Source: a virus. From it: a DNA stretch of 22,183 bases. Positions 1,847 to 22,019 of the stretch are shown here, in pieces. A program made the position numbers and the translations under genes. The stretch is taken from positions 1-22,183 of the IMG/VR virus record IMGVR_UViG_3300021197_000013, one strand, 5' to 3'. Numbering within the stretch: the stretch's first letter is position 1; each line of letters begins with the position of its first letter. The notes under the pieces were generated by a model, which worked only from the letters and a program-made list of their open reading frames with translations, searched no databases and had not been told where the DNA came from.

Positions 1847-2260
1847 GTGAGAATTAGCTTAGTGCCTGAAGAGGCAGTGGGCCGTGTATGGAAGGATGTT
1901 GAAGGAATATTAAGCAAAGCTGTAGATACCGTTGAAAACAAATCAGATGTAATTGATATATTAAACGGAGTTTTTAGTGGTACTTATATTCTTTGGGTTG
2001 TATTAGATGACGATGATAAGATAATAGCCGCATTTACTACAAGACTTATAGTATATCCTCAACGGAAAGCACTGGCCTTAGATTGGGTAGGCGGAACGCA
2101 AATGAAAGAATGGGAAAATCAGTTGATTGACACTATGAAGCGTTACGCAAATGAATTAGACTGTAGCCATCTAGAAGGTTACGGAAGAAAAGCTTGGGGT
2201 AGAGCGTTAAAGAAGTATGGGTTCTATCCTGAGTACATAGCTTACCGAATGGAGTTGTAA
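1847..2260 (+). CDS. GNAT-like acetyltransferase-fold protein in the virion cluster
   Basis: This 137-residue protein has the layout of a small GNAT fold. A central strand pair, YILWVVLDDDDKIIAAFTTR (about 47-66), is followed by a strand ALALDWVGG (about 75-83), a helix (about 85-101), and a C-terminal GYGRKAWGRALKKYGF that fits the usual GNAT helix and last strand. The clear acetyl-CoA loop Q/RxxGxG/A is not obvious, so the fold may be kept without the enzyme activity. It starts with GTG immediately after the previous TAA, with no separate strong ribosome binding site, so translational coupling is likely. No in-frame ATG occurs early enough to be a better start. GNAT-like proteins of this size are, as I recall, common between virion genes of podoviruses, near the T7 gp13 position. 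A structural role is an equal possibility. Confidence 0.6.
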   Translation: MRISLVPEEAVGRVWKDVEGILSKAVDTVENKSDVIDILNGVFSGTYILWVVLDDDDKIIAAFTTRLIVYPQRKALALDWVGGTQMKEWENQLIDTMKRYANELDCSHLEGYGRKAWGRALKKYGFYPEYIAYRMEL

Positions 2261-2261
2261 A

Positions 2262-3308
2262 ATGGGCGGCAAAGGCAGTCAGCAAGTACCTACAGATACT
2301 ATGTCACGCACCACAAGCTTACCTGAGTACGCTGATCCGTACTTTCGTAGGACGCTTCAGGGCGCTGAAGATGCTATGTCACCGTTCAATCCTTATACGG
2401 GGCAATCTAACTATCAACCATATCCTGGAGAAAGACTAACTTCGTCTAACATGTACGGCGATATAGGTGCATCTCGTGCCATGACACGAGGCATTGCTCA
2501 ACAGGGTATCGCAGGTATGCCAGAAGCCATGCAGGCAGGCAGAATGGGTATGTCTGCTTCTGGACGTGGCATTGGGTACACAGATCAAGCAGTAAATCGT
2601 TTACGTCAAGCAGGACAATACGACCCTACAACTTTTACAGGTGGTGCGGTACAGCAATACATGTCTCCGTATATGCAGAATGTTGTGGATGTTCAGAAAC
2701 AGCAAGCAAGACTAGATTTTGATAGGTCTCAAGCAGGAAGAGACGCAGACGCTGTAAGCGCAGGTGCATTTGGTGGTTCTCGCAGAGGTGTTGTTGATGC
2801 GTTGGCAGAAGAAGGATTGCAAAGACAGCTTGGAGATATACAAGCTCTGGGACAGCAACAGGCATTTGACCAAGCGTCTCGTCAGTTTGAAGCTGATCGT
2901 TCAGATAGACAGTTTGGCATAGGTCAACTACTTGCAGGAGAGCAGGCATCGCTAGGCGCAGCTAATCAACTTGGCGGTATGGGGCAACAGTTTGCTAATA
3001 TGGGTGCAGGTCTAGCAAGTCTAGGTGAGCGTCAACGTGCTTCTGATATACAAGGCGCACAGCTACTTGACACCGTTGGTCGTGACATCCGTGCAGAGGA
3101 TCAAGGTCGTCTTGATCTGTCATACGAAGACTTCTTGCGTCAGCGTGAGTATCCACAACAGCAATATGAACGTTTTGCAGGACTTCTGAAAGGCATACCA
3201 GTGACGCCGAACGTAGATCAGCAACGAATGGCTGCTTACAATCCATTATCATCGGCTCTTGGCGCAGGCATTTCGGCCTTAGGACTTTATAAGGGGCTAA
3301 CAGGATGA
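2262..3308 (+). CDS. Virion protein with SPYMQNVVD and GAFGGSRRG motifs (internal or tail protein)
   Basis: This 348-residue protein is rich in Gln, Ala and Gly. After a disordered start come YMSPYMQNVVDVQ (133-145) and then AGAFGGSRRGVVDAL (167-181). A long helical region (about 182-300) follows, with QxxFDQASRQFEADRSDRQF-type Gln/Arg heptads. The SPY..NVVD plus GAFGGSR pair is a signature I associate with podovirus-like marine phage virion proteins in the internal/tail cluster. A Gly-rich hydrophobic end (328-345, SSALGAGISALGLYKGL) could contact membrane. GGAG lies seven bases before the ATG, inside the previous gene. The stop overlaps the next start as ATGA. By order it could be a T7 gp14-like ejection protein, which is inference only. 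Confidence 0.6.
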   Translation: MGGKGSQQVPTDTMSRTTSLPEYADPYFRRTLQGAEDAMSPFNPYTGQSNYQPYPGERLTSSNMYGDIGASRAMTRGIAQQGIAGMPEAMQAGRMGMSASGRGIGYTDQAVNRLRQAGQYDPTTFTGGAVQQYMSPYMQNVVDVQKQQARLDFDRSQAGRDADAVSAGAFGGSRRGVVDALAEEGLQRQLGDIQALGQQQAFDQASRQFEADRSDRQFGIGQLLAGEQASLGAANQLGGMGQQFANMGAGLASLGERQRASDIQGAQLLDTVGRDIRAEDQGRLDLSYEDFLRQREYPQQQYERFAGLLKGIPVTPNVDQQRMAAYNPLSSALGAGISALGLYKGLTG

Positions 3309-5545
3309 ACATAATTGACCTTCAAGAAAGCCTAAAAGATTATTCCGACAACAATTTATTAAAAGAATATAACCAACCTATAAATGACATACCTCAGTAT
3401 CTAATTTTAACAGAGCTGCAAAGACGTAAGCGTATGCGTGATGACTACAAGCGTCAAGAAGCATCTAACACGTCTACTGTAGCAGAAGAAATGATTACGG
3501 GCGTAGGAGTGCCACAAGAAGGTCTGATGACACTAGCAAGTGCATTAACGCCAAACACAGCCCTGTCACAAGATACAGGTATAGATCAAGCCACACCAAT
3601 GCAGGCAACACGTGCACCTCAACCACAGATGGCAGCGGATGGTGGCACTCTTAAAATGGCTGAAGGTGGGATAACTGCATTGCTTGATGGCGTTTTTGGT
3701 TTTGGTCGTGGGAAAGAAGACATCGGCAAGCCTGTACAACCATACCCTGACAACTCTCCAAACCCTCGTGATAGATCTACATGGATGAGAATGTATGGAG
3801 AAACACATAATCTTGATGGCTCTCCAAAAACAATGTCTCCTAACATCTCAGAAATAAACAAGCCAACAGACTATAAAAGTCCTTTTGTAAGCGATGTTAG
3901 TGCAGATATTGGTGATTTTACACCTAATCCTATATCTTCAGAAATGGATCAACTAGTCAATCAAGGAAAATCTCCTAATCTAAATAATATATCAAGAGTT
4001 GGCAGCTTACCTTTCTTACCTCCTGTTACAGATAATTCATTTTCTGAGCTGCCTATTCGCGGTGCAGATACAGACCCTGCTCAACAGTTAGCTAAATTTT
4101 TAGCGAGTCGTAGGTCTGATCTTCCTGGTGTTAACCTCCCTGGTGAGTCAGATCCTTACATAATAGATCCAGATGCGGCTTCAGAAGCAGGGCAAGCTAT
4201 ACTAGATAGCGAATTAAAAGATCCTAGCTCTCCCACTAATCCTACTATTGGCAGTTATGGTAGAACGACTGTTGGTCAAACAAAAGACGAAATAAAAAGA
4301 ATGAATGAGATACTAGATACAGCAGGCATCGGCCCTGACACTGCTACTGGCGGTGTTGATATGCTAGATCTTATGCTTCAAGCTCAAACAGAACGTGGTG
4401 GGTATGAAGCAGCAGATCAGTATAGTAAAGATGAACTGATGCAGTATCTTACTAACCAGAAACCAAGATTCCAAGGAGGAGCAGTCCCTGGAGGGTCATT
4501 CCCAACTGGTGCGATGTACAACCCCACTGCTTCAGGTGCTTTTCCTAACGATGCCGAACTTGCAGGACAGTATCCTAGCTCTTCTACTTTAAGTGGTGAT
4601 AATTTTAGCAATGATCCAACAAAAGGCTACTCATATCCAACAGATGTACCCGCTGATGACCCATCAATGGAAGGCAAGACTGTTCTTGGAAGGTTGGCTG
4701 AAGTTCAAGGTGGTAGCCTATCTGAAGATATATATGGGGGGTACACAGATCCAGAGGCGGTAGCGAGGCGACAGCAATTAGAGCGTATGCTTAGATTAGA
4801 GCCGCTAGGTGAAGGCATGCAAGAAGACGTTGCTACTACAATAGCTGAAGCCGCCAATCAAAAAGCAGCAGAAGAGCAAGAATCCAAAACAGCAGAAGAA
4901 GCGTTACAAAATCAAGAAGATAGTTTTGATCAACCTAACCCCATAGCGATACTTGACTCGGTTACTGACGGCGGTGCAGGCGGCGCGGGTTTTGGTTCTG
5001 CTGAGTCAGAGATTTCTAAGTTATTAGCAGATCGTAGAAAAAGAGCAGACCAGAATAAGTGGTTAGCACTAGCAGAAGCAGGGTTTGCTATGATGGGTCC
5101 AGCAGCAACTTTCGGTGAAGGCATCGGTAAAGGTGGTAAAGCAGGGTTAGCATCTCTACGCGAGTCACAAAAAGGTATGGATGCTTTTGAAACAGATATG
5201 CTCAAACTACAAGCAAGCATGAACATAGCCGATGCTAGAAACCAAACAACACTTGACGCCGCAAACATTCGTAGCGACGCAACATTAAAAGCAGCGTTAG
5301 CTCGCTTAAAAGGATCTGCTAAAAATGCTCCTGTAGGTTTAGTAACCGCCGCAGCAAGTCAAGTAGATGATGCTAGAACTGCTTTGCAATTCGCTAGAAC
5401 AGATCCAGAAAAACTATTGGCTAAAAATGCTCTTGATAAAGCACAAGCAACATTCGAGGAAATTTTTAATAGGGTTGCTAGTCAGTTTCCTGCAACTTCT
5501 GACATGTCAACAACCACATTAAGTGGGCGAACACAAGTAGGGTGA
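3305..5545 (+). CDS. Large low-complexity virion protein with coiled-coil C-terminus
   Basis: The 746-residue product has no enzyme motif. Residues 1-52 form a helical head ending in a basic run (LTELQRRKRMRDDYKRQEA). ADGGTLKMAEGGI at 111-123 closely resembles the ADGG...AEGG element of the protein encoded at 701-1846. Residues about 125-570 are Pro/Ser/Gly/Asp-rich and probably disordered. Residues about 580-615 are hydrophobic and Gly-rich (ALAEAGFAMMGPAATFGEGI), followed by an Ala-rich helix or coiled coil (about 615-730). This plan, together with the neighbours, suggests an internal or ejected virion protein comparable in position to T7 gp15. The ATG overlaps the previous stop (ATGA), implying coupled translation. 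Three bases separate it from the giant gene downstream. Confidence 0.55.
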   Translation: MNIIDLQESLKDYSDNNLLKEYNQPINDIPQYLILTELQRRKRMRDDYKRQEASNTSTVAEEMITGVGVPQEGLMTLASALTPNTALSQDTGIDQATPMQATRAPQPQMAADGGTLKMAEGGITALLDGVFGFGRGKEDIGKPVQPYPDNSPNPRDRSTWMRMYGETHNLDGSPKTMSPNISEINKPTDYKSPFVSDVSADIGDFTPNPISSEMDQLVNQGKSPNLNNISRVGSLPFLPPVTDNSFSELPIRGADTDPAQQLAKFLASRRSDLPGVNLPGESDPYIIDPDAASEAGQAILDSELKDPSSPTNPTIGSYGRTTVGQTKDEIKRMNEILDTAGIGPDTATGGVDMLDLMLQAQTERGGYEAADQYSKDELMQYLTNQKPRFQGGAVPGGSFPTGAMYNPTASGAFPNDAELAGQYPSSSTLSGDNFSNDPTKGYSYPTDVPADDPSMEGKTVLGRLAEVQGGSLSEDIYGGYTDPEAVARRQQLERMLRLEPLGEGMQEDVATTIAEAANQKAAEEQESKTAEEALQNQEDSFDQPNPIAILDSVTDGGAGGAGFGSAESEISKLLADRRKRADQNKWLALAEAGFAMMGPAATFGEGIGKGGKAGLASLRESQKGMDAFETDMLKLQASMNIADARNQTTLDAANIRSDATLKAALARLKGSAKNAPVGLVTAAASQVDDARTALQFARTDPEKLLAKNALDKAQATFEEIFNRVASQFPATSDMSTTTLSGRTQVG

Positions 5546-5548
5546 TAT

Positions 5549-8500
5549 ATGGGCGTTTATAAGTATGACGACCCCACAACTGGAATAGGCTACGATTTAA
5601 ATATTGCAGGGGGCGTACCAACTGATGCAGAGTTTGCTAAATTAGCTGCTGTACTAGAAAGAGATCGCGCTGATTTTATTACTCGTTACGAAGATGCTTT
5701 TGGCGAACCTCCTAAAGAAGTTGATGATGGTACAGCTATAAGCCGTGGTTTTGCTCGTGGTAAAAAACAAGTAAAAGGTGCTGTTGGAGAGACGATAGGC
5801 ACTATTGGTGAGCGGTCTGGGCTTGAGTTTCTTGAAAACTATGGCGAAGGTTTAGAAGAACGTGCTCAACAAGAGCTAGGTGAACTATCTCTCGAACAAC
5901 CTAAAAGATTACAGTCAACAGACGTAGATAGCGTAGGTTCCGCGTTGCAATACGCAGGAGAAGTTGTTGGTGAGCAAATACCGCAACTTGGTATTGGTCT
6001 AGGTGCAGCCGTAGTAGGTACAGCAGCCGCGCCACTTGTTGCCCCTGTTTTAGGTGCAGCAGCGCCGTTTGTTGCAGGTGCTACAGTCGCAGGTGCAGCA
6101 ACAGCACCGATCTTGTTTGGTAACAACATCCAACGTCAAGAAGATGAAGTAGCAGCAGGTAAAAAAGCATCCGTTGATGTTGGAGCCGCTCTTAAAGCCA
6201 CGTTTGGTCAAGCCGTCCTTGAAGGTGTTGCTGACAAGATCTTGTTAGGTGGTGCATTTCGTTCTCTAGGAAAATCTATTTTTACCCGTACAGCCTCACG
6301 TGTAGGCAGCGGTGCTACAACTGAAGGCTTGACCGAAGTTGGTCAACAGATGATGGAGCGATCACAAGCGGGGCTTCCTATAGATAGTGATGATGCAATT
6401 GCAGAATACCGTGAAGCAGCCATCGCAGGTGGTCTTATCGGTGGTGGCACACGAGCTACATTTGGTGCTATCGGAGAAGGTGATCCAGACACTGAAACAG
6501 GTGGTACGACCCGTGGTCAGGGCACGAACGTTGCACAGGGCATACAAACAGCTCCTCAGTTACAAAAAGATCAAGCACAAGGCGAGTTATTTCCAGAATC
6601 GGAGATTACCGCAGCACAAGAAAAAGATGCAAAAAATAAAGCTGACCCCAAACCAGAAAAGAGTAAAGCAGAAAAGACAAAAGAAGAGATTGCAGAAGAT
6701 TCGGCTGTAACAGGAGCTACAACAGGCGATACGGTATCCGCAGATGCACTAAGCAAAGAAGAGCAGAATGCTGTTAACAAAGTTACACGTGAAGAAGAAA
6801 AAGTCGCAAAGAAGGCAACGGAAAAAACAAAAGAATACTTAGAAGACAAACCAAAAGAAGATCGTGCCGCAGCACTTGAAAGCGAGCAGACTGGTCAACA
6901 GATTGAAGTGGGTAAAGAACCAGTACAAGGTGAGTTGTTTGCAGAAGAGGTATTCACACCTGATTATGTAAAAAACGTGCTCGGCATTACACGAGCTACA
7001 GCGCCACTTTTAAAAGCCGCAACAAAAGGTGACCTAAGTGGCAGATCTCTTGACGACCCTGAAATTGTGGATCGCCTTTCAAAATATGTAAATAGAAGAG
7101 GAGCTGAAAGCGAAACCGTAAAAGCTGTTATGAAAGGACGTGGCTACGACTATGCAAACTTCCCAGGCACAGACAGCATTGGGTTTATTAAGCCAAGGAG
7201 TGATATAGATGCAGGAGGAGATAGCACTACTACAGGAGGAGCTAGAGCAAGCGTTCAGAGTAGTGGATCTGGCGTGGCAGGAACGGGACGGGCAGGAAGT
7301 AGAGATCCGAGTACCGAAGACTCTGCATCATCTGACACAGAAGGAGTGGGAACAGATAGGGGAGATACTGTGCCACCTGTTGTGGCAGCAAGAGAACAGC
7401 CAGATACACTAAGACGTACAGCTTTACCACTAGGACAAGAAACAGCAGTCGACGCACAGTTAGGGCCAATACCTGAAGGCATTCCGCCTGTACCTAGGAC
7501 AGAAACAACGCAAGAAGCTGCACCTGAAGTAGATGTGCAAGCGCAGCAAGAACTAAATGTTGCAGCGCAGCAAGCTCTAAATGATCGTTTTGTTTTAGAA
7601 CCTGCTAATAATAAAGAAGGTAGAGATACCGCCGTCGCACGTCAGTATTACGAAGAACAACAATTAGAGAGTCAAGAACCCGATTCTACTAACGCAGATG
7701 ATAAACAAGCTATCTTAAATCTATTTTCCACTCAGAAAAACCAACTAACAGAAGAAGCTAAAGCCGCCAAAATATTTTTTGATAGATTCCGTCGCCCCAT
7801 AGATGCTTTAGAAGAAATAGGTGGTATGGAGGTTGTTGGTCCTACTCAATATACTAAAAAACTATACTCATCTGACGAGCTTGCTTTCTATACGGGGATG
7901 ACAAAAAGTAAAGCTCTTGCTGCACGTAAGTGGGTACAGCTTAACTTATCAGAAGAAGCTAGTAGTCGTGTAGCCCTTGCCGCACAACGAGCACGTAAAG
8001 ATACATCTAAGTTTAACCCCTCTGACAAAGAAATTGAAGCAGGTCGCGCAGCTAAAAAAGAAGCTAAAAACTTTCGTGATGCTCAGAATCTGGCATACAA
8101 ACGGCAAGTAGATGAGATTGTAAAACAAAACAATCTTGTAGCAAGTATACCTGCTCAGATTGAAGCAATGCCAGAGCAGAAGCAGATCATCCCTGATCTA
8201 GAAGTCGCGTTTAAAAAATACTTACGTGACCCACAAGGACTAAACTTTACACAGGCTGAAATAGACACGATGACCCCTGCACAGATACAAGAGTATCGTG
8301 ATGGCTATAATTATTCGTATCAATTAGGTCTGTACCTAGATGCAGATGCAGTACATGGATTAGACATTGCATTACTGCCTAGTGTACGCAGCGCACTTAT
8401 GAACGGTAATTTACGTGGGGCATTAGATGCTATAGCTGTAACCAATCAAATAGATAGTATTCGTGAGATCGCAGCTAAACTAGGGGCTGTTGTAGGCGAT

Positions 8501-11500
8501 ACGCAAGTGCGAGTGGTTGATAATTTATCACAAGTAACAGGGCGCAACACCGCAGGAATGTTTGAGCCTGAGACAAACACAATCTCTATCGATGCTAATA
8601 ACGGGATGAACGTGCATACTATACTGCATGAGATGACCCACGCAGCTACCTCGGCATCGATAGCTAACCCCTCACTACCTGAGACTAAACAGCTACAAGC
8701 AATATTTGACAACGTGCGAGAGCAGTTTGGCGAGGTGTATGGCACGACAAATTTAGATGAGTTTGTCGCTGAAGCATTTAGCAACCCAGAGTTTCAAAGT
8801 GCACTAGCTCTTACAAAAGTAGATGGGGGTAGACTGACAGGTTGGGAGAAGTTCACAGGTGCAATAAAACGTATCGTCCGTAAAGTATTAGGTTTGTCTC
8901 CCTCCCCCACTGCTTTATCTGAAGTTAATCGCATTATAGATGGTATGCTTTCTCCATCACCTGCTACACGTGCAGCTCCTTCTATGCTTATGTTAGCAGG
9001 TACAAAGACTGGGGCAAAGAACCTAGCCAGAGGCGCAGCAAGTGTTGTGCCTGAAGGTATTCGCAACTCAGTTGCAGACAGCGCAGACGTTATGTTTAAC
9101 GAAGGAGCGTCACGAACACTACGAAGTTGGTTCTTAAACACTCTACCTGTAAACATCTTGACAGACAAAGCTAAAAAATTCATTCCGTTTGCTAGAGAAC
9201 TTAACACCATAATAAACACAATGAGTGGGTCGTTAAGGAAAAAGTCAGAGATGCTAGACTCTATTCTTTTCAATCTCCATAAGTGGCAACGCAAAAACAA
9301 AGACAAAGCAAAGATATTAAACAACCTCATACCGCGTAGCACCTACCTACAGGTTGATCCGTCTCGTACCGATATAGAGTACATGAAAGACATTCGTAAC
9401 GACAAGGAACGCTCTGCCGAATACGATCAGCTAAGAGCAGAATATAATAAGTTAAAACCTGAAGGGCAGGCGTTTTATCGCCAGATGCGTAATTACTTTC
9501 AGGATACATACAAAGAGATAATGGAAGCGTTAGACATACGCTTAAATGCTACGATCCCTAACCTAGAGCAACGTAAGTCGGCGATGGCTAAGATACAGGA
9601 CATGATGCAAAAGCAAAGCAGCACCATCACACCATACTTCCCTTTGATGCGTAAAGGGGCGTATCGATTATCTTACACTGCTCCCGATCCGCAAAATTCA
9701 AATCCTAACCAAACAGGAGAGCGTTTTGTAGAATACTATCCTACAGAGCGTAAAGCGACACAAGCATTGCAGGCAGCGGAGAACGCAGGAGCTAGTGATC
9801 TGTCTATAACTTCGGCTTCAAAACGATTTGAGTATGAGAACAATCCTTCACCTGGATTTGTGGGCGAGCTTTTTGACACGCTAAATGAAAAAAATGTATC
9901 TAAAGAAGCAATGAGTGAGGTAATAGATCTTGTATTAGACGCCATGCCAGAACGCTCTTTCTTACAAGGCTTTCGTAAGCGTGGGAATGTACGTGGGTTT
10001 ATCGGAGATACCACACCGACTGGTATAGGTGGTACAGAGTTTGATGCTTACACTATGATGAAAGAAAAGGGTCGTGACCTAAACAGGCAGCTTGTACAAA
10101 TGAAAGCAAGCGCAGAGCTTGTTGGATTCAAGAACAAATTAACGAGTGGCAAGTACGATCAAGATCCACGCACAGCAATGATGGCAGGTAAGCTTGCACA
10201 GATAGCTACGTTTGCACAAAGCCCAGACATAAATCGTACTTCTCAAATAGTTAACAGCCTTGGATTTGGTTATACTATGGGGCTTAACTTCTCCTCCGCA
10301 GCTATAACGTTCTTTGATGTAGCTATGAGTGCTATGCCTGTGCTCGCAGGAAAACATGGTATTCGTGCTACTTCCAAAGCATTCGGCACAGCTTCCAAAT
10401 TGTTTATGGGCGCACCTAAAACAAGAACTGTTATGGTAACTGGGGCTGATGGGCAACTTGTTGAACAAGAAGTTAACATGGGTATGTTCGGTAAATCAGG
10501 CGCTAACTATGATTTAAATAGTTTACCTTCCGTATTGCAAGAAAATCGTGGGGACATATTACTTACGATGGGTACAGATCAGGGACAGTTTAATCAGTCC
10601 ATGACACAAGAAAATCTGGAGATGGGTCGCGGTGCACCACTAGAAACTTTTAATAAATTTTCTAGCTTTATGTTTCATCACTCAGAAAGATTTAATCGTG
10701 AGACTACTTTAGTAGCCGCATACTTATTGGAAGTACAGAAACTTAAACGAGAGAAAGGTGATCTTACTGAAGCTGACTACCGTGATGCAGCTCAAGAAGC
10801 TATAGACTCTACAGAGTTTACTCTCGGTGCAACTGCTTCCGCAGGGCGTCCAATCATAGCACAAAATGCCGTTGGTAACGTAGCATTTTTGTTTAAACGA
10901 TTTGCAATCAGCAAATATTATATGATGGCGAAGTTAGCCAAAGAATCAGCAGGCACGACTAATATAAATAAAATAATGGCTGACATGGATGTTTCTCGTG
11001 AAGAAGCGCAAGCCATAGCTAGTGACAGAAAGGTTGCACGTGCAGCAGGACGTAACTTTCTTGTATCCACAGGTATATTTGCAGGACTTGGTGGCATGCC
11101 GATGATGGGTGCAATCGGTGTACTCTACAACATGTTTGCAGATGAAGACGAAGATGACTTCGAGGCAGCTACACGTAAGTTTGTAGGAGAAGGTATTTAC
11201 GGTGGTCTTGCTAATGAGATGCTAGGCGTAGATCTAGCTAATCGTATTTCGATGAACAGCTTGCTTTATCGTGCACCAATCATAGACAAAGATCAGAGTA
11301 ATCTGTGGACGTTGATAGAACAACTAGGAGGCCCAGTAATTGGTGTAGGGTTAAGTGTTGAACGTGGTATGGGTGATGTTTACGAAGGAGAGTGGTATAG
11401 AGGCGTAGAATCTATGGTCCCTGCGTCTGTCCGTAACGGTATGAAGTCTTTTAGATTTGCAACTGAGGGAGCGACGACTCGACGTGGAGATGCAATTACT

Positions 11501-11872
11501 GAAGATATCAACCCGTACAATGTGGCAATGCAGCTCGCAGGATTTGCGCCGCAGGCTTATATACAACGGCTTGAAATAAACAAAAACGAAAGACGTAAAC
11601 AAACGTCACTAGACAGTAAACGCACAAAGCTCTTACGGAAACGTAACATGGCTATGCGTGAAGGTGACTATGAAGAGGTGCAGAAAGTAGACGAGTTGAT
11701 TTCTGAGTTTAACGCATCCATACCAGAAGCGTTTGTACGAGACGAGTTGATAACTATAGAAGCAAAAGAAAGATCGTTTAAAGCGTTCTTACAAATGTCT
11801 AGAAAAATGCGCGGTGGAGTATCTTTCACCGATGGTATGCTAGAAAGCCTAGAAGAATATGATCTAGAATAA
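5549..11872 (+). CDS. Giant polyvalent (ejected) virion protein with zincin metallopeptidase and PLxRFG-like domains
   Basis: A 2107-residue multidomain protein. In order: N-terminal helical region (1-140); Gly/Ala-rich membrane-like hairpin (about 143-190) and a second Gly-rich segment (about 292-310); Lys/Glu-rich linker (about 344-470) bounded by QGELF at 344 and again at 460; small domain (about 470-550); Gly/Ser/Thr and acidic linker (about 551-675); helical region (about 676-960); metallopeptidase domain (about 960-1150) with HEMTH at 1027-1031 and NLDEFVAEAF at 1068-1077 offering Glu1071 or Glu1075 as third zinc ligand; PLMRKG (1365-1370), a variant of the PLxRFG motif named for phage polyvalent proteins; SERFNRETTLVAAY (1712-1725); a hydrophobic segment (about 1837-1863); and a charged C-terminus. 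Polyvalent proteins are thought to be packaged and injected to act on host defences or DNA entry. AGGG lies upstream of the ATG. It is the last + gene and ends in the convergent terminator. Assignment as ejected protein is inference from family and position. Confidence 0.8.
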   Translation: MGVYKYDDPTTGIGYDLNIAGGVPTDAEFAKLAAVLERDRADFITRYEDAFGEPPKEVDDGTAISRGFARGKKQVKGAVGETIGTIGERSGLEFLENYGEGLEERAQQELGELSLEQPKRLQSTDVDSVGSALQYAGEVVGEQIPQLGIGLGAAVVGTAAAPLVAPVLGAAAPFVAGATVAGAATAPILFGNNIQRQEDEVAAGKKASVDVGAALKATFGQAVLEGVADKILLGGAFRSLGKSIFTRTASRVGSGATTEGLTEVGQQMMERSQAGLPIDSDDAIAEYREAAIAGGLIGGGTRATFGAIGEGDPDTETGGTTRGQGTNVAQGIQTAPQLQKDQAQGELFPESEITAAQEKDAKNKADPKPEKSKAEKTKEEIAEDSAVTGATTGDTVSADALSKEEQNAVNKVTREEEKVAKKATEKTKEYLEDKPKEDRAAALESEQTGQQIEVGKEPVQGELFAEEVFTPDYVKNVLGITRATAPLLKAATKGDLSGRSLDDPEIVDRLSKYVNRRGAESETVKAVMKGRGYDYANFPGTDSIGFIKPRSDIDAGGDSTTTGGARASVQSSGSGVAGTGRAGSRDPSTEDSASSDTEGVGTDRGDTVPPVVAAREQPDTLRRTALPLGQETAVDAQLGPIPEGIPPVPRTETTQEAAPEVDVQAQQELNVAAQQALNDRFVLEPANNKEGRDTAVARQYYEEQQLESQEPDSTNADDKQAILNLFSTQKNQLTEEAKAAKIFFDRFRRPIDALEEIGGMEVVGPTQYTKKLYSSDELAFYTGMTKSKALAARKWVQLNLSEEASSRVALAAQRARKDTSKFNPSDKEIEAGRAAKKEAKNFRDAQNLAYKRQVDEIVKQNNLVASIPAQIEAMPEQKQIIPDLEVAFKKYLRDPQGLNFTQAEIDTMTPAQIQEYRDGYNYSYQLGLYLDADAVHGLDIALLPSVRSALMNGNLRGALDAIAVTNQIDSIREIAAKLGAVVGDTQVRVVDNLSQVTGRNTAGMFEPETNTISIDANNGMNVHTILHEMTHAATSASIANPSLPETKQLQAIFDNVREQFGEVYGTTNLDEFVAEAFSNPEFQSALALTKVDGGRLTGWEKFTGAIKRIVRKVLGLSPSPTALSEVNRIIDGMLSPSPATRAAPSMLMLAGTKTGAKNLARGAASVVPEGIRNSVADSADVMFNEGASRTLRSWFLNTLPVNILTDKAKKFIPFARELNTIINTMSGSLRKKSEMLDSILFNLHKWQRKNKDKAKILNNLIPRSTYLQVDPSRTDIEYMKDIRNDKERSAEYDQLRAEYNKLKPEGQAFYRQMRNYFQDTYKEIMEALDIRLNATIPNLEQRKSAMAKIQDMMQKQSSTITPYFPLMRKGAYRLSYTAPDPQNSNPNQTGERFVEYYPTERKATQALQAAENAGASDLSITSASKRFEYENNPSPGFVGELFDTLNEKNVSKEAMSEVIDLVLDAMPERSFLQGFRKRGNVRGFIGDTTPTGIGGTEFDAYTMMKEKGRDLNRQLVQMKASAELVGFKNKLTSGKYDQDPRTAMMAGKLAQIATFAQSPDINRTSQIVNSLGFGYTMGLNFSSAAITFFDVAMSAMPVLAGKHGIRATSKAFGTASKLFMGAPKTRTVMVTGADGQLVEQEVNMGMFGKSGANYDLNSLPSVLQENRGDILLTMGTDQGQFNQSMTQENLEMGRGAPLETFNKFSSFMFHHSERFNRETTLVAAYLLEVQKLKREKGDLTEADYRDAAQEAIDSTEFTLGATASAGRPIIAQNAVGNVAFLFKRFAISKYYMMAKLAKESAGTTNINKIMADMDVSREEAQAIASDRKVARAAGRNFLVSTGIFAGLGGMPMMGAIGVLYNMFADEDEDDFEAATRKFVGEGIYGGLANEMLGVDLANRISMNSLLYRAPIIDKDQSNLWTLIEQLGGPVIGVGLSVERGMGDVYEGEWYRGVESMVPASVRNGMKSFRFATEGATTRRGDAITEDINPYNVAMQLAGFAPQAYIQRLEINKNERRKQTSLDSKRTKLLRKRNMAMREGDYEEVQKVDELISEFNASIPEAFVRDELITIEAKERSFKAFLQMSRKMRGGVSFTDGMLESLEEYDLE

Positions 11873-11965: not shown

Positions 11966-12189
11966 GCACGTAAACCAAGTTTTTTGTTTTCAACACAAAT
12001 TTGTACTTCAAGCTCCCATGCTTTCATTTTTGCAACACTTTTTAGCTGTTTTTTACCTTTTTCGGTATTGATGCAGGGTATAAATATAGATGACCCTACG
12101 TCCATCGCGTCCCAGTTTATTGTGATCCGAAGCCCGTCAGGGTTCAAATCATCAAGCTTCATCACTTTCTGATCCATCACTGCCCTCAT
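11950..12189 (-). CDS. Small conserved-looking phage protein of unknown function
   Basis: This is the last gene of the leftward block, 79 residues from the first ATG. It reads like a compact folded alpha/beta protein: strand LRITINW, then VGSSIFIPCINTEKGKKQ, a helix, and a final strand pair ending GLRAWRTV. Small phage proteins with an FxPC...YGxRxWRT pattern are familiar to me from other genomes but have no assigned role. It overlaps the primase-helicase gene by 38 bases. The start is uncertain: the first ATG (12189) has only a weak GAAGAG upstream, while the in-frame ATG at 12177 has GAGGG six bases upstream and would give 75 residues. It ends inside the palindrome and just before the leftward terminator, so it shares the operon's transcript. 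Confidence 0.7.
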   Translation of the reverse strand: MRAVMDQKVMKLDDLNPDGLRITINWDAMDVGSSIFIPCINTEKGKKQLKSVAKMKAWELEVQICVENKKLGLRAWRTV

Positions 12190-14965
12190 CTAGCTCTTCA
12201 AATTTCATCTCCAACACCCAATCTGGTGGCAGATTAAAGTCTGTGCCCTTGGTCAAACGTTTCTTTATACGCTTGGCGTTCAGCTTATCTTTTAGATCGT
12301 CCACAAGACTAGCATAGTTTATCTGTTGATCTATACACCACTCTCTAAATGGCTTGATACGTAGGAACAGCAGCTTTGTGTCAGGCTCGTACCGTGCAAC
12401 TAAGAAGCCTCTTGGCGATGCCGAAATAGGTACAAGTTGATCCAGGCCGTTGTCATGCTTACCACGTAAGTCCTGCGTACTCTCTATCTTCAACATATTG
12501 TTGTAGTTCTCTGACAAGTAGTTGTTGAGTGTTTGTGATACCGATGCACCGATGTCGTTGACGAAGTTGTTTCGTATAATCAGTTCCTTCACTACCCACT
12601 TATACACAGCACCCACGTCGTAGTTAACGAACCCAAGATTCTTAGCTATGATAAGACCTGCAAGAATTACAGCGTTGCCGTTTGACCAAAATCGGTTTTC
12701 TGGTCCTAGCCCTGCCGCAGCGTCTATTCTGCGCTTGACGGACTCAACGGTGCGCTTGGCTTCTTCTTTGTTGTTTATCACCCACTGCGTATACTCTGGA
12801 CCAATCCAACCGTAGTTTCTTTTTAACTCATTAAACAAATCAGTTGTATCGTCGTTCTTACCAACAGCATTAATTAACTTCTTTACCTGTATCTCGAACA
12901 GCCGCTGCATCTCTGCTTTCGGCATAGCCTTGTCTCGACTCAGTATCTCCCACGCACTGGTATTCCCAGAGCTTAGAGCTAGTAACTGCCAAGGCTTACC
13001 ACGAGTTCTTTCTATGTTACCGTTTGAAGCGAGACGGTTCTTCTGGCGTCCCCCCGATACTTGGTAAACATATTCAGACATTTGCATACTTGATATGTTT
13101 GTCATCTCATCTGACACCAGAGGTAGACTGTGCATCACTTCACCACGGTTCATCCTAGCGTTGTGTGTATCATCTTTGGCGTTCATCAGATCTTCTGGGT
13201 TGCCCCATAGAGATAAGCAAGCCATCTGTGCTGTTGTTTTACCTACGCCTGTGCCGCCATGCAGATGCACCGCCATGCTGTTTAGCCCTGTCAAAGCCAT
13301 CAGAGGCGAGCCGAATCCGACGCCGACGATGTATTGATGTAACTCCCACCCTGCTCTGTCGTAGAAGTTTAGCATGTCTATGCTTTTCTCACGCGAACCT
13401 TTTGGTTCAAACGCATCTATAAGCCCTGCTGTCTTAGATGATGGAGGGTTGTAGCTAATCTCTGCACCAGTGATAAGTTTATCTCCAAGTACAAACTCTT
13501 CCATATCGTCATCGACCCAACCAAACTGTCTGTGTGCTTCGTCTGCCATAGATGTTTTCTGTAATTCATCGACCCACTTTGTTGTATATGCCATAAGCTT
13601 ATCTAGACTCCTTCCCCATGCAGTTACGCCCTCTCGCGCCATGCTCTTACGAAACTCTTCTCTTGAAGTCACATGCGTAAGTGGCACACTAAACTGACGT
13701 ACACCATCTCTTGGTAAGTGTAGTCGAAATACTAATGTCTCGCCAAGCTCTTCATCATGCAACCTACGAGTGATGTATATATCATGATGATATATCACCT
13801 CTTCTTCTATGTCTCCATCAGCGTTGCTGCTACGCATAAATACGCCACCTGCTACCCCCCTAAAGTATGGTGAGGGGTATTCTGGTATATCAAACTCTTT
13901 GCTTTGCTTTTTACCTGCAACAGGTGCAGATACCGTTGCTGAACCCTGCGCTGCTTTAATACGTTTGCCCAATACAATCGGTGACTTTATCTCGCCCCAT
14001 AAAGGACATTCTGTGCACACTCCTTCGTTTAGTTCGTCAAAACGTGCACATGTATACGGACCTTTTATCTCGTCTACCTTCTTACGCATCCCATCTTCAC
14101 TATAATCAGGATGCCTATCAGATATTCTTTCTGCTGCCTTGTCCCCATCTATACAGAATTTTGTAATAGATAGCCCTGCTCTCCACAGGGGTTCGCTAAC
14201 TTCTTCTTGCTTTGTAGCTATAAACCGTAGCTGCTCACATCCACGTCCTTCGATAGTCTTTTTTATAATTGTCTTAAAAACATTTTCTGAGTTGTCAGCA
14301 TACGCTTCGTATAGCGCGTCAGTACCCAAGTCTAGGTTGGTAACTGGCTTCAACACGCCAAGCTTGGCGACAAACTCAGACAGTACAACAGGTTCTGGCA
14401 TGTCTACACCAAACAATTCCACCGCTAGAGGCGGATCATCTTTATAATTATGCGTATTCGGCACACGTAATATACGTGCCACATCTGCTGTCACGGCAGG
14501 GTCTGCGAGTAGTCCGTTATCGACGCAAGCCTGCTTTAATGTCTCTGCTACACTCACCCATTCCTCTGCCGAAACTGATTCGGTAAGGCTCCAGTATACG
14601 TGTACACCTCGTCCACTGTTGACCATTGTAGGTCTAGGCAGAGAGAGTTGTTTACAGAAACTACGCAACGCTTCGATTGCTGCTTGCTGCGTGGGATATT
14701 CTTTTGAAGGACCGCAGTCTAAATCCAAGAACAAGGATTTAAGTTCGTGTGCGTTGTCGCCCTTTCGGTTTGTGGGTTCTTTGAATGTACTAAGTGCAAA
14801 GTAGACATCGAATCCATCGGAGTTAAACTTGCTTGCGGCTCGTTCTACTTCTTCGATAGTATCGTAAAACTTTTGTATTCTCTTGTTATCTCTGCTTCTA
14901 GCGACAAACATACAGTAATGACCGCTGTCGCTTAGTACTCTCCCCAAAAAATCTGTTGTTTCCAT
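12152..14965 (-). CDS. Primase-helicase fusion (AEP-type primase plus DUF927-like ATPase)
   Basis: A 937-residue replication initiator that should prime and unwind phage DNA. The N-terminal domain has archaeo-eukaryotic primase motifs: LFLDLDCG with Asp81/Asp83, SGRGVHVYW (117-125) with His122, and RILRVPNTHNYK (164-175). A cysteine cluster at 306, 317 and 320 (CARFDELNEGVCTEC) may bind zinc. The C-terminal half resembles DUF927 helicase-like ATPases: Walker A GGTGVGKTT (570-578), Walker B-like PLVSDEM (615-621) with Asp619/Glu620, and a sensor-like LLALSSGN (661-668). The tail is acidic (EELDEGSDGSESDEA). GGAG lies eight bases before the ATG, and a strong hairpin lies upstream in the leader. 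I see no separate DnaB- or gp4-type helicase gene in the window, so this protein probably supplies the fork helicase. Confidence 0.85.
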   Translation of the reverse strand: METTDFLGRVLSDSGHYCMFVARSRDNKRIQKFYDTIEEVERAASKFNSDGFDVYFALSTFKEPTNRKGDNAHELKSLFLDLDCGPSKEYPTQQAAIEALRSFCKQLSLPRPTMVNSGRGVHVYWSLTESVSAEEWVSVAETLKQACVDNGLLADPAVTADVARILRVPNTHNYKDDPPLAVELFGVDMPEPVVLSEFVAKLGVLKPVTNLDLGTDALYEAYADNSENVFKTIIKKTIEGRGCEQLRFIATKQEEVSEPLWRAGLSITKFCIDGDKAAERISDRHPDYSEDGMRKKVDEIKGPYTCARFDELNEGVCTECPLWGEIKSPIVLGKRIKAAQGSATVSAPVAGKKQSKEFDIPEYPSPYFRGVAGGVFMRSSNADGDIEEEVIYHHDIYITRRLHDEELGETLVFRLHLPRDGVRQFSVPLTHVTSREEFRKSMAREGVTAWGRSLDKLMAYTTKWVDELQKTSMADEAHRQFGWVDDDMEEFVLGDKLITGAEISYNPPSSKTAGLIDAFEPKGSREKSIDMLNFYDRAGWELHQYIVGVGFGSPLMALTGLNSMAVHLHGGTGVGKTTAQMACLSLWGNPEDLMNAKDDTHNARMNRGEVMHSLPLVSDEMTNISSMQMSEYVYQVSGGRQKNRLASNGNIERTRGKPWQLLALSSGNTSAWEILSRDKAMPKAEMQRLFEIQVKKLINAVGKNDDTTDLFNELKRNYGWIGPEYTQWVINNKEEAKRTVESVKRRIDAAAGLGPENRFWSNGNAVILAGLIIAKNLGFVNYDVGAVYKWVVKELIIRNNFVNDIGASVSQTLNNYLSENYNNMLKIESTQDLRGKHDNGLDQLVPISASPRGFLVARYEPDTKLLFLRIKPFREWCIDQQINYASLVDDLKDKLNAKRIKKRLTKGTDFNLPPDWVLEMKFEELDEGSDGSESDEA

Positions 14966-16481: not shown

Positions 16482-16681
16482 TATTCAGCCATTCCTGTTT
16501 TGCTTGCTTCTGATAGTGCAGACTCTACATCGTCTAGTCTAAACCTATAGACTTCACCGATTTTTATGTATGTATTGTCAGGTATGTAGTCGTTGTTTAC
16601 CCACTTACGGACGGTTGACACAGATACTTGGAAGTAATCTGCAACCTTGTTAATGTTTACATATGGAGTATCTTCGTTCAT
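16481..16681 (-). CDS. Small helix-turn-helix DNA-binding protein (excisionase/MerR-like fold)
   Basis: A 66-residue protein that is almost entirely one winged-helix domain of the HTH_17/excisionase type. It has VNINKVADYFQVSVSTVRKWVNNDYIP (about 8-34) with recognition helix STVRKWV, then a wing IKIGEVYRFRLDDVESAL (39-56). Such proteins bind specific DNA as repressors, excisionases or replication factors. No integrase is seen in the window, so a purely excisive role is unsupported; a regulator of this operon or an origin-binding factor fits as well. GAGG lies five bases before the ATG. It overlaps both neighbours: ATGA with the upstream gene and TAATG with the downstream gene. Confidence 0.82.
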   Translation of the reverse strand: MNEDTPYVNINKVADYFQVSVSTVRKWVNNDYIPDNTYIKIGEVYRFRLDDVESALSEASKTGMAE

Positions 16682-17067
16682 TTTTTCCTCACAGAGATGA
16701 CGTACTCCGAATCTACATTGAGACCTGAAGGAACTAACTCAGGATTCTCTTCTATAAATTGTCGTACATTGGTTTGATTTAAACGCTTCTCAAAGAACTC
16801 AAGGAGATCATGCTTTGCAATAAAGCCATACATAGAATCCCAATCGCTCGTCCAATAACGTTGTTTGACAGTGCGATAGAATAATCCCGCAGGAGTCCTT
16901 ACACTGTCCACGCCTTGCTCTTTACAATATCCTAGCAAAGCACGTTTAATCTTATCTTGCTTTTCAGCAAGACCGCCATCTTCTTCTTTGAATTTGGCAG
17001 ACAACTCCGAACGCTTGTCACGTATTTTGATGTAAGCTTTTGTAAGCCTTTCGACTGATACCGCCAT
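16678..17067 (-). CDS. Conserved phage protein of unknown function, helical N-terminus
   Basis: This 129-residue protein starts with a charged helical stretch (VERLTKAYIKIRDKRSELSA and on to about 50) that may be a coiled coil. A compact domain follows, with VRTPAGLFYRTVKQRYWTSDW (56-76), a helix FIAKHDLLEFFEKRLNQTNVR and a final strand VISVRKK. The pattern, IRD/K...Ae.y...r.adWd.~~ff...lnk..V...~e...P.Gv, is one I recognise in many phage early regions, but I know no tested function. GGAGA lies seven bases before the ATG. A candidate promoter sits just upstream, so this may be the first gene of a sub-transcript running through the HTH, four-cysteine, SSB and primase genes. Confidence 0.75.
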   Translation of the reverse strand: MAVSVERLTKAYIKIRDKRSELSAKFKEEDGGLAEKQDKIKRALLGYCKEQGVDSVRTPAGLFYRTVKQRYWTSDWDSMYGFIAKHDLLEFFEKRLNQTNVRQFIEENPELVPSGLNVDSEYVISVRKK

Positions 17068-21461: not shown

Positions 21462-21562
21462 TACTCTTCCAGTAAACTCAATAAAAGTTTTGCTTGGTAA
21501 TCACCACGTCTTGTCATGTCTCGTAAGTATTCCAGAAGCATATCTCTGAGTTCATCAGTCAT
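21461..21562 (-). CDS. 33-residue micro-gene coupled to the polymerase gene
   Basis: A 33-codon frame begins at ATG 21562 with GGAGAA six bases upstream and ends at TAA 21461-21463, sharing one base with the polymerase ATG (TAATG). It overlaps the end of the upstream gene by 8 bases. The product is two short amphipathic helices (MTDELRDMLLEYLRDMTRRG, then a Leu-rich second helix ending LLEE), which could be a dimerising helical hairpin. The good ribosome binding site and both-sided overlaps mimic its neighbours. It may be a small replication cofactor or a leader that couples polymerase translation. No homology is known to me. Confidence 0.6.
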   Translation of the reverse strand: MTDELRDMLLEYLRDMTRRGDYQAKLLLSLLEE

Positions 21563-22019
21563 TGTTTTTCTCCGTAATTTTATTTACTACCTCGCCGCCA
21601 CAAGCCATGTACCCACAGGCGTCTACCCAGTTGTCTATGTGTGTAGGATTAGAATGTATACGAGCGATCTTGAGTAACGCCATCATCGCTGCAACATCTT
21701 CTGTCTTTATAAAATCAATCAGTCCAAGGTGTGCGTTCCAGTATAAGGCGATGCGCTGAAAGTTATCTTCCATGTCGCCGTGGTCTGCTGCACGATCTTT
21801 CGTGACGTAGTTTTTAGCCGTGTCTAATACTTTTGCACGATCCCACATTGGCATTGTGGACACTTCTTCTCTCCAGTTTTCTGAACTGATCCGCGATATA
21901 AGATTTTTTACAAAGTGTATGTCAACGTCACACGCGTTTGCTACCTCGGCGTTTTCTGCTTGTCTGTTCTTCAGAAGATAATTCCATACCTTCTCTTCCT
22001 TCTTCGTCATGTTTGTCAT
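21555..22019 (-). CDS. HTH-DUF6378 fusion protein, unknown function
   Basis: This 154-residue protein has two parts. Residues 5-50 (KKEEKVWNYLLKNRQAENAE, then ANACDVDIHFVKNLISRI) look like a winged helix-turn-helix. Residues about 62-146 match the phage DUF6378 pattern: YVTKDRAADHGDMEDNFQRI (71-90), MMALLKIARI (112-121), HIDNWVDACGYMA (127-139). The conserved acidic, Lys/Arg and Asp residues (Asp79, Asp82, Asp85, Lys117, Arg120, Asp129, Asp133) suggest a metal or nucleotide site, but no activity is established that I know of. AGGGAG lies six bases before the ATG. It overlaps the upstream small gene by 92 bases and the 33-codon gene by 8. Confidence 0.8.
   Translation of the reverse strand: MTNMTKKEEKVWNYLLKNRQAENAEVANACDVDIHFVKNLISRISSENWREEVSTMPMWDRAKVLDTAKNYVTKDRAADHGDMEDNFQRIALYWNAHLGLIDFIKTEDVAAMMALLKIARIHSNPTHIDNWVDACGYMACGGEVVNKITEKNND

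Follow-up and report, generated by a model that had tools for sequence, protein, structure and literature searches.

A 2107-residue polyvalent protein with a predicted zincin domain as the probable largest ejection protein of a short-tailed phage

The ejection genes of podoviruses form a small operon in which the genes are arranged in a small-medium-giant order (PMC8954989). Members of the gp15 type have mostly been matched by size and synteny, not by sequence, and those of the gp16 type are widely divergent (PMC8954989). One giant member is the virion RNA polymerase (vRNAP) of coliphage N4, an ejection protein that consists of a membrane N-domain, a cargo, an HExxH domain C1 (2124-2375) and a large helical domain C2 (PMC12633501). 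Other giant phage proteins are the polyvalent proteins described by Iyer and colleagues, and the PLxRFG tail and LPD39 occur on many giant phage proteins. Here, a gene of 2107 codons in the virus record IMGVR_UViG_3300021197_000013 is compared with these systems. The window, which is the whole stretch of DNA analysed, is itself a virus contig of 22183 bases.

The 2107-amino-acid (aa) gene is probably that of the largest ejection (internal virion) protein of a short-tailed phage, and the protein would combine a polyvalent-protein chassis with a zincin; this reading draws on sequence comparison, gene order and structure prediction. The initial annotation described one uninterrupted gene of 6.3 kb and 2107 residues, and this is borne out by a single unbroken open reading frame (ORF) at 5549..11872 on the plus strand, whose ATG lies 3 bases past the stop of the preceding 746-aa gene. 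Two scans of viral contigs returned 27 and 79 loci, giving 61 distinct homologues (at least 1500 aa, 34-87% identity). Judged from sequence conservation, the ORF is coding beyond doubt, since homologues of up to 2.0-2.7 thousand residues with 34-87% identity are present on about 60 distinct viral contigs. No relative was found in one scan of bacterial genome contigs, and GenBank phages gave matches that are just 22-29% identical, mostly in the C-terminal part. The motifs HEMTH (1027-1031) and PLMRKG (1365-1370) are at exactly the positions reported earlier, with one copy of each in the protein. The following features are distinguished in the gene:

5549..11872, plus strand: whole gene, 2107 aa, about 230 kDa (intact ORF; about 60 homologues)
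5726..6472, plus strand: N-terminal module of the LUZ24-type internal virion protein kind, residues 60-308 (phrog_6958, E=1.5e-8; profile matches)
5987..6118, plus strand: Gly/Ala-rich hydrophobic segments, residues 147-190 (position conserved; hydrophobicity not beyond shuffled sequences)
6479..6943, plus strand: disordered linker of variable length, residues 311-465 (homologue lengths; AlphaFold predicted local distance difference test, pLDDT)
6944..7198, plus strand: small exchangeable domain (R-domain), residues 466-550 (pLDDT mostly 77-89)
7199..7528, plus strand: disordered linker, residues 551-660 (pLDDT below 50)
7529..8338, plus strand: helical region, residues 661-930 (AlphaFold helices; pLDDT high at 700-820)
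8339..8998, plus strand: predicted zincin-like metallopeptidase domain, residues 931-1150 (invariant residues; fold order; profile matches)
8627-8641, plus strand: HEMTH of the zincin, the HExxH motif, residues 1027-1031
8759-8773, plus strand: EFVAE (E1071, E1075) in the second helix of the zincin (invariant in homologues)
9104..9580, plus strand: LPD39, residues 1186-1344 (PF18858, E=1.2e-18, 67.9 bits against a cut-off of 27)
9632..11779, plus strand: PLxRFG tail-700, residues 1362-2077 (NF032893, E=3.5e-79, 267 bits against a cut-off of 100)
9641-9658, plus strand: PLMRKG motif, residues 1365-1370
11069..11125, plus strand: Gly-rich hydrophobic segment inside the tail, residues 1841-1859 (hydrophobicity scan)

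The position of the gene points to an ejection protein. Upstream are a lysin-like gene and a cassette of genes of 381, 137, 348 and 746 aa, and downstream are a convergent primase and a replication module. The 348-aa gene is found upstream in all 29 testable loci, and the convergent primase downstream in all 59. Three members of the cassette can be described further:

1847..2260, plus strand: 137-aa gene, T7 gp13-sized (phrog_25629; 21 relatives of 137-164 aa)
2262..3308, plus strand: 348-aa gene of a 'DNA ejection protein' family (phrog_4287, E=2.4e-9)
3305..5545, plus strand: 746-aa gene, gp15-like by position, its start overlapping the preceding gene (N-terminal match to MinM2_24)

Homologues of the 348-aa protein fill the same slot in MinM2, DSL-LC04, HTVC023P, HTVC027P and psg01, and in these five phages the homologue is followed by a gene of 279-645 aa and then by the largest gene of the slot. 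The gene that follows in the slot is labelled 'DNA transfer protein' in DSL-LC04 and 'putative structural protein' in HTVC027P; the papers on HTVC023P and HTVC027P (PMC9599517, PMC12753301) say nothing about internal virion proteins or ejection proteins. The 746-aa gene, whose product matches no NCBIfam family, is conserved in its N-terminal part only, and in most relatives this part immediately follows the 348-aa gene. The sizes of 137-348-746-2107 aa repeat the small-medium-giant order of T7 (138-196-747-1318, gp13-14-15-16) and N4 (150-644-3500), and the 2107-aa gene is the last and largest of a 14-15-16-type operon, the criterion used in PMC8954989. A 58-kb relative contig has portal and capsid genes and a terminase that is 45-47% identical to those of HTVC023P/HTVC027P and phage 023Pt_psg01. 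A long, largely helical protein that is encoded among late genes and has hydrophobic stretches towards either end could also be the tape-measure or fibre protein of a long-tailed phage, but the portal, terminase and cassette content of the relatives is podovirus-like, no such family is matched in Pfam, PHROGs or NCBIfam, and the homologues differ in length mostly by linker changes; this alternative is highly improbable.

As a separate observation on the cassette, the middle part of the 348-aa protein also resembles stretches annotated as tailspike or S74-type chaperone in other phages, as opposed to the PHROG name 'DNA ejection protein'.

The N-terminal module is of the kind found in internal virion proteins. 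Residues 57-310 match the PHROGs 'virion structural protein' family phrog_6958 (E=1.5e-8). A profile of residues 1-310 matches phiA008 gp66 with 47 bits, Bjorn gp53 with 32 bits, the 'particle internal protein' of Pae-1 with 28 bits and POI1126 gp30, at its 458-752, with 28.5 bits, and reversed-sequence controls reach at most 3.1 bits (25-protein subset without POI1126). E-values of such small-set profile searches refer to sets of 15-50 proteins, and bit scores are the fairer measure. The hhalign probabilities are 96% for phiA008, 95% for Bjorn and 89% for Pae-1, and a weaker match to the profile, of 10.8 bits, is seen in MinM2. The Bjorn and Pae-1 proteins are annotated as virion structural or particle internal, and that of Aeromonas phage phiA008 as hypothetical. 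All three share the homology over residues 60-300, the late-region gene before each of them is 505-681 aa long, and phiA008 gp66 also has HELGH. However, the Bjorn and Pae-1 proteins are about 1060 aa long without zincin or tail, and phiA008 gp66 also lacks the tail as judged by NF032893. No LUZ24-type homology was found over the remaining chain, as the Bjorn/Pae-1 profile match ends at about residue 330-390 of the 2107-aa protein. In the region of about 1-140, where a new effector domain had been suspected, the part from about residue 60 onward falls inside this module (about 60-300), which has its homologues among LUZ24-type internal virion proteins and is not a new effector domain.

The initial annotation also reported Gly/Ala-rich hydrophobic segments near both ends and saw in them membrane segments that help an effector across the envelope. 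The segments are present, and their position and character are kept across 49-60 homologues, but their hydrophobicity stays within shuffled expectation. The 19-residue Kyte-Doolittle means are 1.86 (147-165), 1.55 (172-190) and 1.48 (1841-1859), and the maximum in shuffled sequences is on average 1.66 with a 95th percentile of 2.08, making the segments unexceptional by composition alone. The cassette slot and the LUZ24-type N-terminal module fit an ejection protein better than an effector with helper segments.

The C-terminal block consists of LPD39 and the PLxRFG tail. The NF032893 match covers positions 2-664 of the 681 in the profile. PLMRKG retains the P, L, R and G of PLxRFG, with K in place of F, and this position is mostly K, H or D in the homologues. 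A homologue search and comparison of domain order, proposed with the initial annotation, gave about 60 viral-contig homologues, and six distant giants (douglas 12A4, Skulduggery, Parlo, POI1126, ZX1 and 1F273_PE002) have LPD39 and then the tail, as here. In all six the tail is confined to the C-terminus, with 3-16 residues after it. Y1363, L1366, R1368 and G1370 are invariant even against them, and 42 positions of the tail carry one and the same residue in four family members and the six giants. By its NF032893 score of 267 bits, versus 689-783 for ZX1 and Skulduggery, the family is a divergent branch of the tail. PLxRFG had been taken as a module of its own, with residues 1370-1700 left unassigned; instead, the motif opens one C-terminal tail of about 720 residues (NF032893, 1362-2077) with LPD39 upstream, and thus 1370-1700 belongs to a known family of unknown function.

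By domain content, the 2107-aa protein belongs to the phage polyvalent proteins, as had been proposed on the basis of a zincin and a PLxRFG-family module. At least two disparate domains of the published set are present in one chain (zincin and LPD39, plus the PLxRFG tail), the HExxH motif, E1071 and E1075 are invariant, and the gene is encoded near late virion genes. The PLxRFG giants Pseudomonas phage Skulduggery SKUL_28, Klebsiella phage ZX1 and Serratia phage Parlo gp81 likewise end with the tail, preceded by LPD39, are the last large gene of the late region, and in most cases have an HExxH upstream. In contrast, these giants are 3.0-4.8 thousand residues long and carry a DarB- or methylase-type label where annotated, whereas the protein described here has 2.1 thousand residues, lacks these domains and shows PLxRKG. 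In PHROGs, its C-terminal part matches 'DarB-like antirestriction' and unknown families, with 1704-2078 as the best DarB-like stretch. This automatic label was rejected, because its best match falls within the shared tail and neither a methylase nor a helicase is found with Pfam or NCBIfam, and it serves as a warning that tail homology alone can spread the label.

Residues 931-1150 are predicted to form a zincin metallopeptidase. H1027, E1028, H1031, E1071 and E1075 are invariant in 44-47 aligned homologues, and two AlphaFold runs, which share most homologues, give three strands followed by the HExxH helix and a second helix with a pLDDT of about 80-90. This is the zincin order of strands and helices. 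Profile matches were obtained to the HExxH domains of Parlo gp81 and phi14:2 gp76, and two relatives also give weak matches to DUF6782, a family of putative metallopeptidases; a Pfam scan of the 2107-aa protein did not call the zincin. Cellulophaga phage phi14:2 gp76 (Crassvirales) has a homologous zincin (46.6 bits, HEIMH...HEFISEVISNP) and is structural by tandem mass spectrometry according to its record, but it is 1421 aa long, and LPD39, the tail and the N-terminal module are not detected in it by these profiles.

The shared zincin of phi14:2 gp76, the late-gene position and the processing of P1 DdrB before packaging (PMC5512222) would agree with a scaffold-like or core virion protein whose zincin is a head-maturation protease, acting in assembly without the protein being delivered. 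However, in the genome of a relative the major head protein is encoded by a gene of its own, which also matches head maturation protease families. In addition, the domains are those of injected polyvalent proteins and the gene lies where ejection proteins are encoded, which makes this explanation improbable. For the zincin of the probable ejection protein, cleavage of its own chain is the preferred reading: Iyer and colleagues have proposed this for packaged giants, and cuts within the linkers would set free functional blocks that are complete. As an observation in its own right, the close sequence of the zincin in phi14:2 gp76 (5629-9894) suggests that peptidases have been exchanged between podovirus ejection proteins and crAss-like virion proteins.

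The variable part of the protein is internal. Among homologues complete there, the linker region 311-697 is 318 to 698 residues long, and region 698-960 is also variable; in the same comparison, far less variation is seen in the N-terminal module, zincin and tail. The two long disordered linkers noted earlier are confirmed, with residues of about 300-465 and 551-660 largely below a pLDDT of 50. Between them lies the R-domain, a related version of which (conserved core of about 50 residues) is present in 44 of the 59 homologues whose sequence was sufficient. Eight of the 59, which form a clade, have FtsK-gamma (Pfam PF09397) at the equivalent place and no detected R-domain; the two occur together in none of the 59, and 7 have neither. 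A search of the records found FtsK-gamma in 10 of 43, with 7 above the curated cut-off, and one of the 10 (L018, below the cut-off) falls outside the 8-member clade. A tblastn search of GenBank phages with residues 466-550 gave no match. The FtsK-type winged helix-turn-helix is already listed as a rare polyvalent-protein domain (PMC5512222), so FtsK-gamma is not new to these proteins; the observation made here is that it replaces another domain in one slot. The regions 470-550 and 676-960 had been described as without assignable function, and this holds for 466-550 and for the helical region 661-930, which matches no Pfam or NCBIfam family, but from residue 931 onward the chain is the predicted zincin. 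The cargo-like part of the protein is the linker region with the small domain 466-550.

The initial annotation considered the protein to be the main ejected effector. Encoded among late genes, it is probably packaged and injected, and to this extent the proposal stands, but the gp16-type slot fits an ejection protein carrying a peptidase. A mainly injected anti-defence or host-modifying effector, in which a host protein is the substrate of the zincin, enzymatic activity resides in LPD39 or the tail and DNA transfer falls to the neighbouring proteins, draws on the proposal that polyvalent proteins are injected effectors, with zincins acting on host proteins as one listed option, on the listing of LPD39 as potentially enzymatic (PMC5512222) and on the invariant polar residues retained in the tail, such as E1713, R1717 and E1718. 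Against this, the arrangement is the reverse of a swapped effector tip, with variation inside the chain and constancy at the C-terminus; the N-terminal module is of the internal-virion-protein kind, the gene occupies the ejection slot, and Pfam finds no methylase, helicase, ADP-ribosyltransferase (ART) or RNase domain. The effector explanation is unlikely, and a role as main effector is less likely than that of an ejection protein whose chain includes a zincin and, as cargo, a small exchangeable domain.

Comparison with described ejection proteins supports a similarity of layout. N4 gp50 has a membrane-type N-domain, linker, cargo, HExxH domain and helical C-terminal domain of about 1000 residues, and it is the last of a three-gene ejection operon, as the 2107-aa gene closes its cassette. 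N4 gp50 has an RNA polymerase, whereas no Pfam or NCBIfam polymerase match is found here, and apart from a borderline match at the HELVH region (E=0.011, 43-protein set) no sequence homology was seen with hhalign. T7 gp16 and phiKMV gp37 share the genomic slot and the neighbour sizes, and the C-terminal model resembles phiKMV-type core proteins in Foldseek; they show no sequence homology, no zincin has been reported in them, and Pfam finds no transglycosylase domain in the 2107-aa protein. Because sequence homology to the T7, phiKMV and N4 members is lacking, the protein may be said to work like a gp16, not to be one. Synechococcus phage MinM2 (14534-22945) has in the same slot a 2803-aa protein annotated as RelA/SpoT, a differently loaded polyvalent protein with LPD38 near the C-terminus, a weak ART-PolyVal match and two HExxH motifs. 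The proteomics of JC1 gp69 (PMC9144972) was rejected as evidence for the tail, as JC1 gp69 is without tail-700 and LPD39 and is a slot analogue only.

Several results weigh against an ejection protein. The protein has no significant match in PDB by sequence, nor has its multidomain model by Foldseek fold search. Against viral models, Foldseek gives 80 matches at E<=0.001, with large polyvalent proteins first and then several phiKMV/T7-type internal core proteins (E 4.7e-10 to 7.5e-5), but the core-protein matches have template modelling (TM) scores near 0.2, and hhalign profiles of the C-terminal block against T7 gp16, phiKMV gp37, P12053L gp42 and N4 gp50 are at background. The link to core proteins is suggestive only, because of these TM-scores and because sequence profiles do not support it. 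In addition, the hydrophobic segments are modest, a protein that is cargo and nothing else could also sit in the slot, and Iyer and colleagues list LPD39 as potentially enzymatic, by which part of the block would be effector (PMC5512222).

A possible course of events can be outlined for a protein that, from its gene content and position, is likely packaged and ejected. First, the C-terminal block 1186-2077 (LPD39 and PLxRFG tail) would dock in the capsid and be required for packaging. A docking or packaging module is suggested because the block is constant, terminal and present on proteins of otherwise differing content, and a precedent is the N4 vRNAP, in which the region containing the peptidase domain is needed for encapsidation (PMC5512222). 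Upon infection, the protein would exit via the phage tail in an at least partly unfolded state, and the N-terminal module 60-300 with its Gly/Ala segments may build a conduit across the envelope with the 348- and 746-aa products, as homology and gene order suggest. Third, the flexible linkers would hold out the 466-550 domain, or in some relatives the winged helix of FtsK-gamma, which binds DNA, towards the entering DNA or a host target. Finally, the zincin 931-1150 might cut its own chain before or after ejection, or a host protein, with self-processing the likelier.

It is possible, although doubtful, that podoviruses share an ejectable chassis with a membrane or ejection N-terminal module, a zincin and a large helical C-terminal dock, whose central slot takes interchangeable cargo. 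In N4 the cargo would be the RNA polymerase, in MinM2 the RelA/SpoT- and ART-like domains and in other giants methylase-helicase; in the present family it would be either a domain of 50-85 residues or FtsK-gamma. If true, the 2107-aa protein would be a near-minimal version that reveals which parts are chassis. The compact family combines the tail, without its usual methylase-helicase load, with an internal-virion-protein front end and the ejection slot. A packaging or ejection role of the tail thereby becomes directly testable, and polyvalent proteins are connected with the podovirus DNA-entry machinery.

Some observations were made on other genes. The minus-strand gene at 12152-14965 encodes a 937-aa replication protein with a primase-polymerase-like N-terminus (weak LigD_Prim-Pol match) and a DUF927 helicase-like domain. 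The 129-aa product of 16678-17067 (minus strand) matches a PHROGs 'minor head protein' family (E=5e-25) and weakly the Mu Gam/Gp157-like Pfam family (E=4e-4), and its gene is located in the replication/recombination module beside genes for a Gp2.5-type single-stranded DNA-binding protein, a helicase and an exonuclease. The head protein label is probably wrong, and a nuclease-inhibitor (Gam-like) role appears more plausible. At 21555-22019 (minus strand), PHROG 'phosphofructokinase' families are matched, yet the product is clearly Pfam DUF6378 (E=5e-31), and the PHROG name looks like a propagated error. On a relative contig (L099, 771-2582), a 603-aa protein of the 2OG-Fe(II) (2-oxoglutarate-iron) oxygenase type (phrog_61, E=8e-76) is encoded upstream of the tail-fibre and ejection region.

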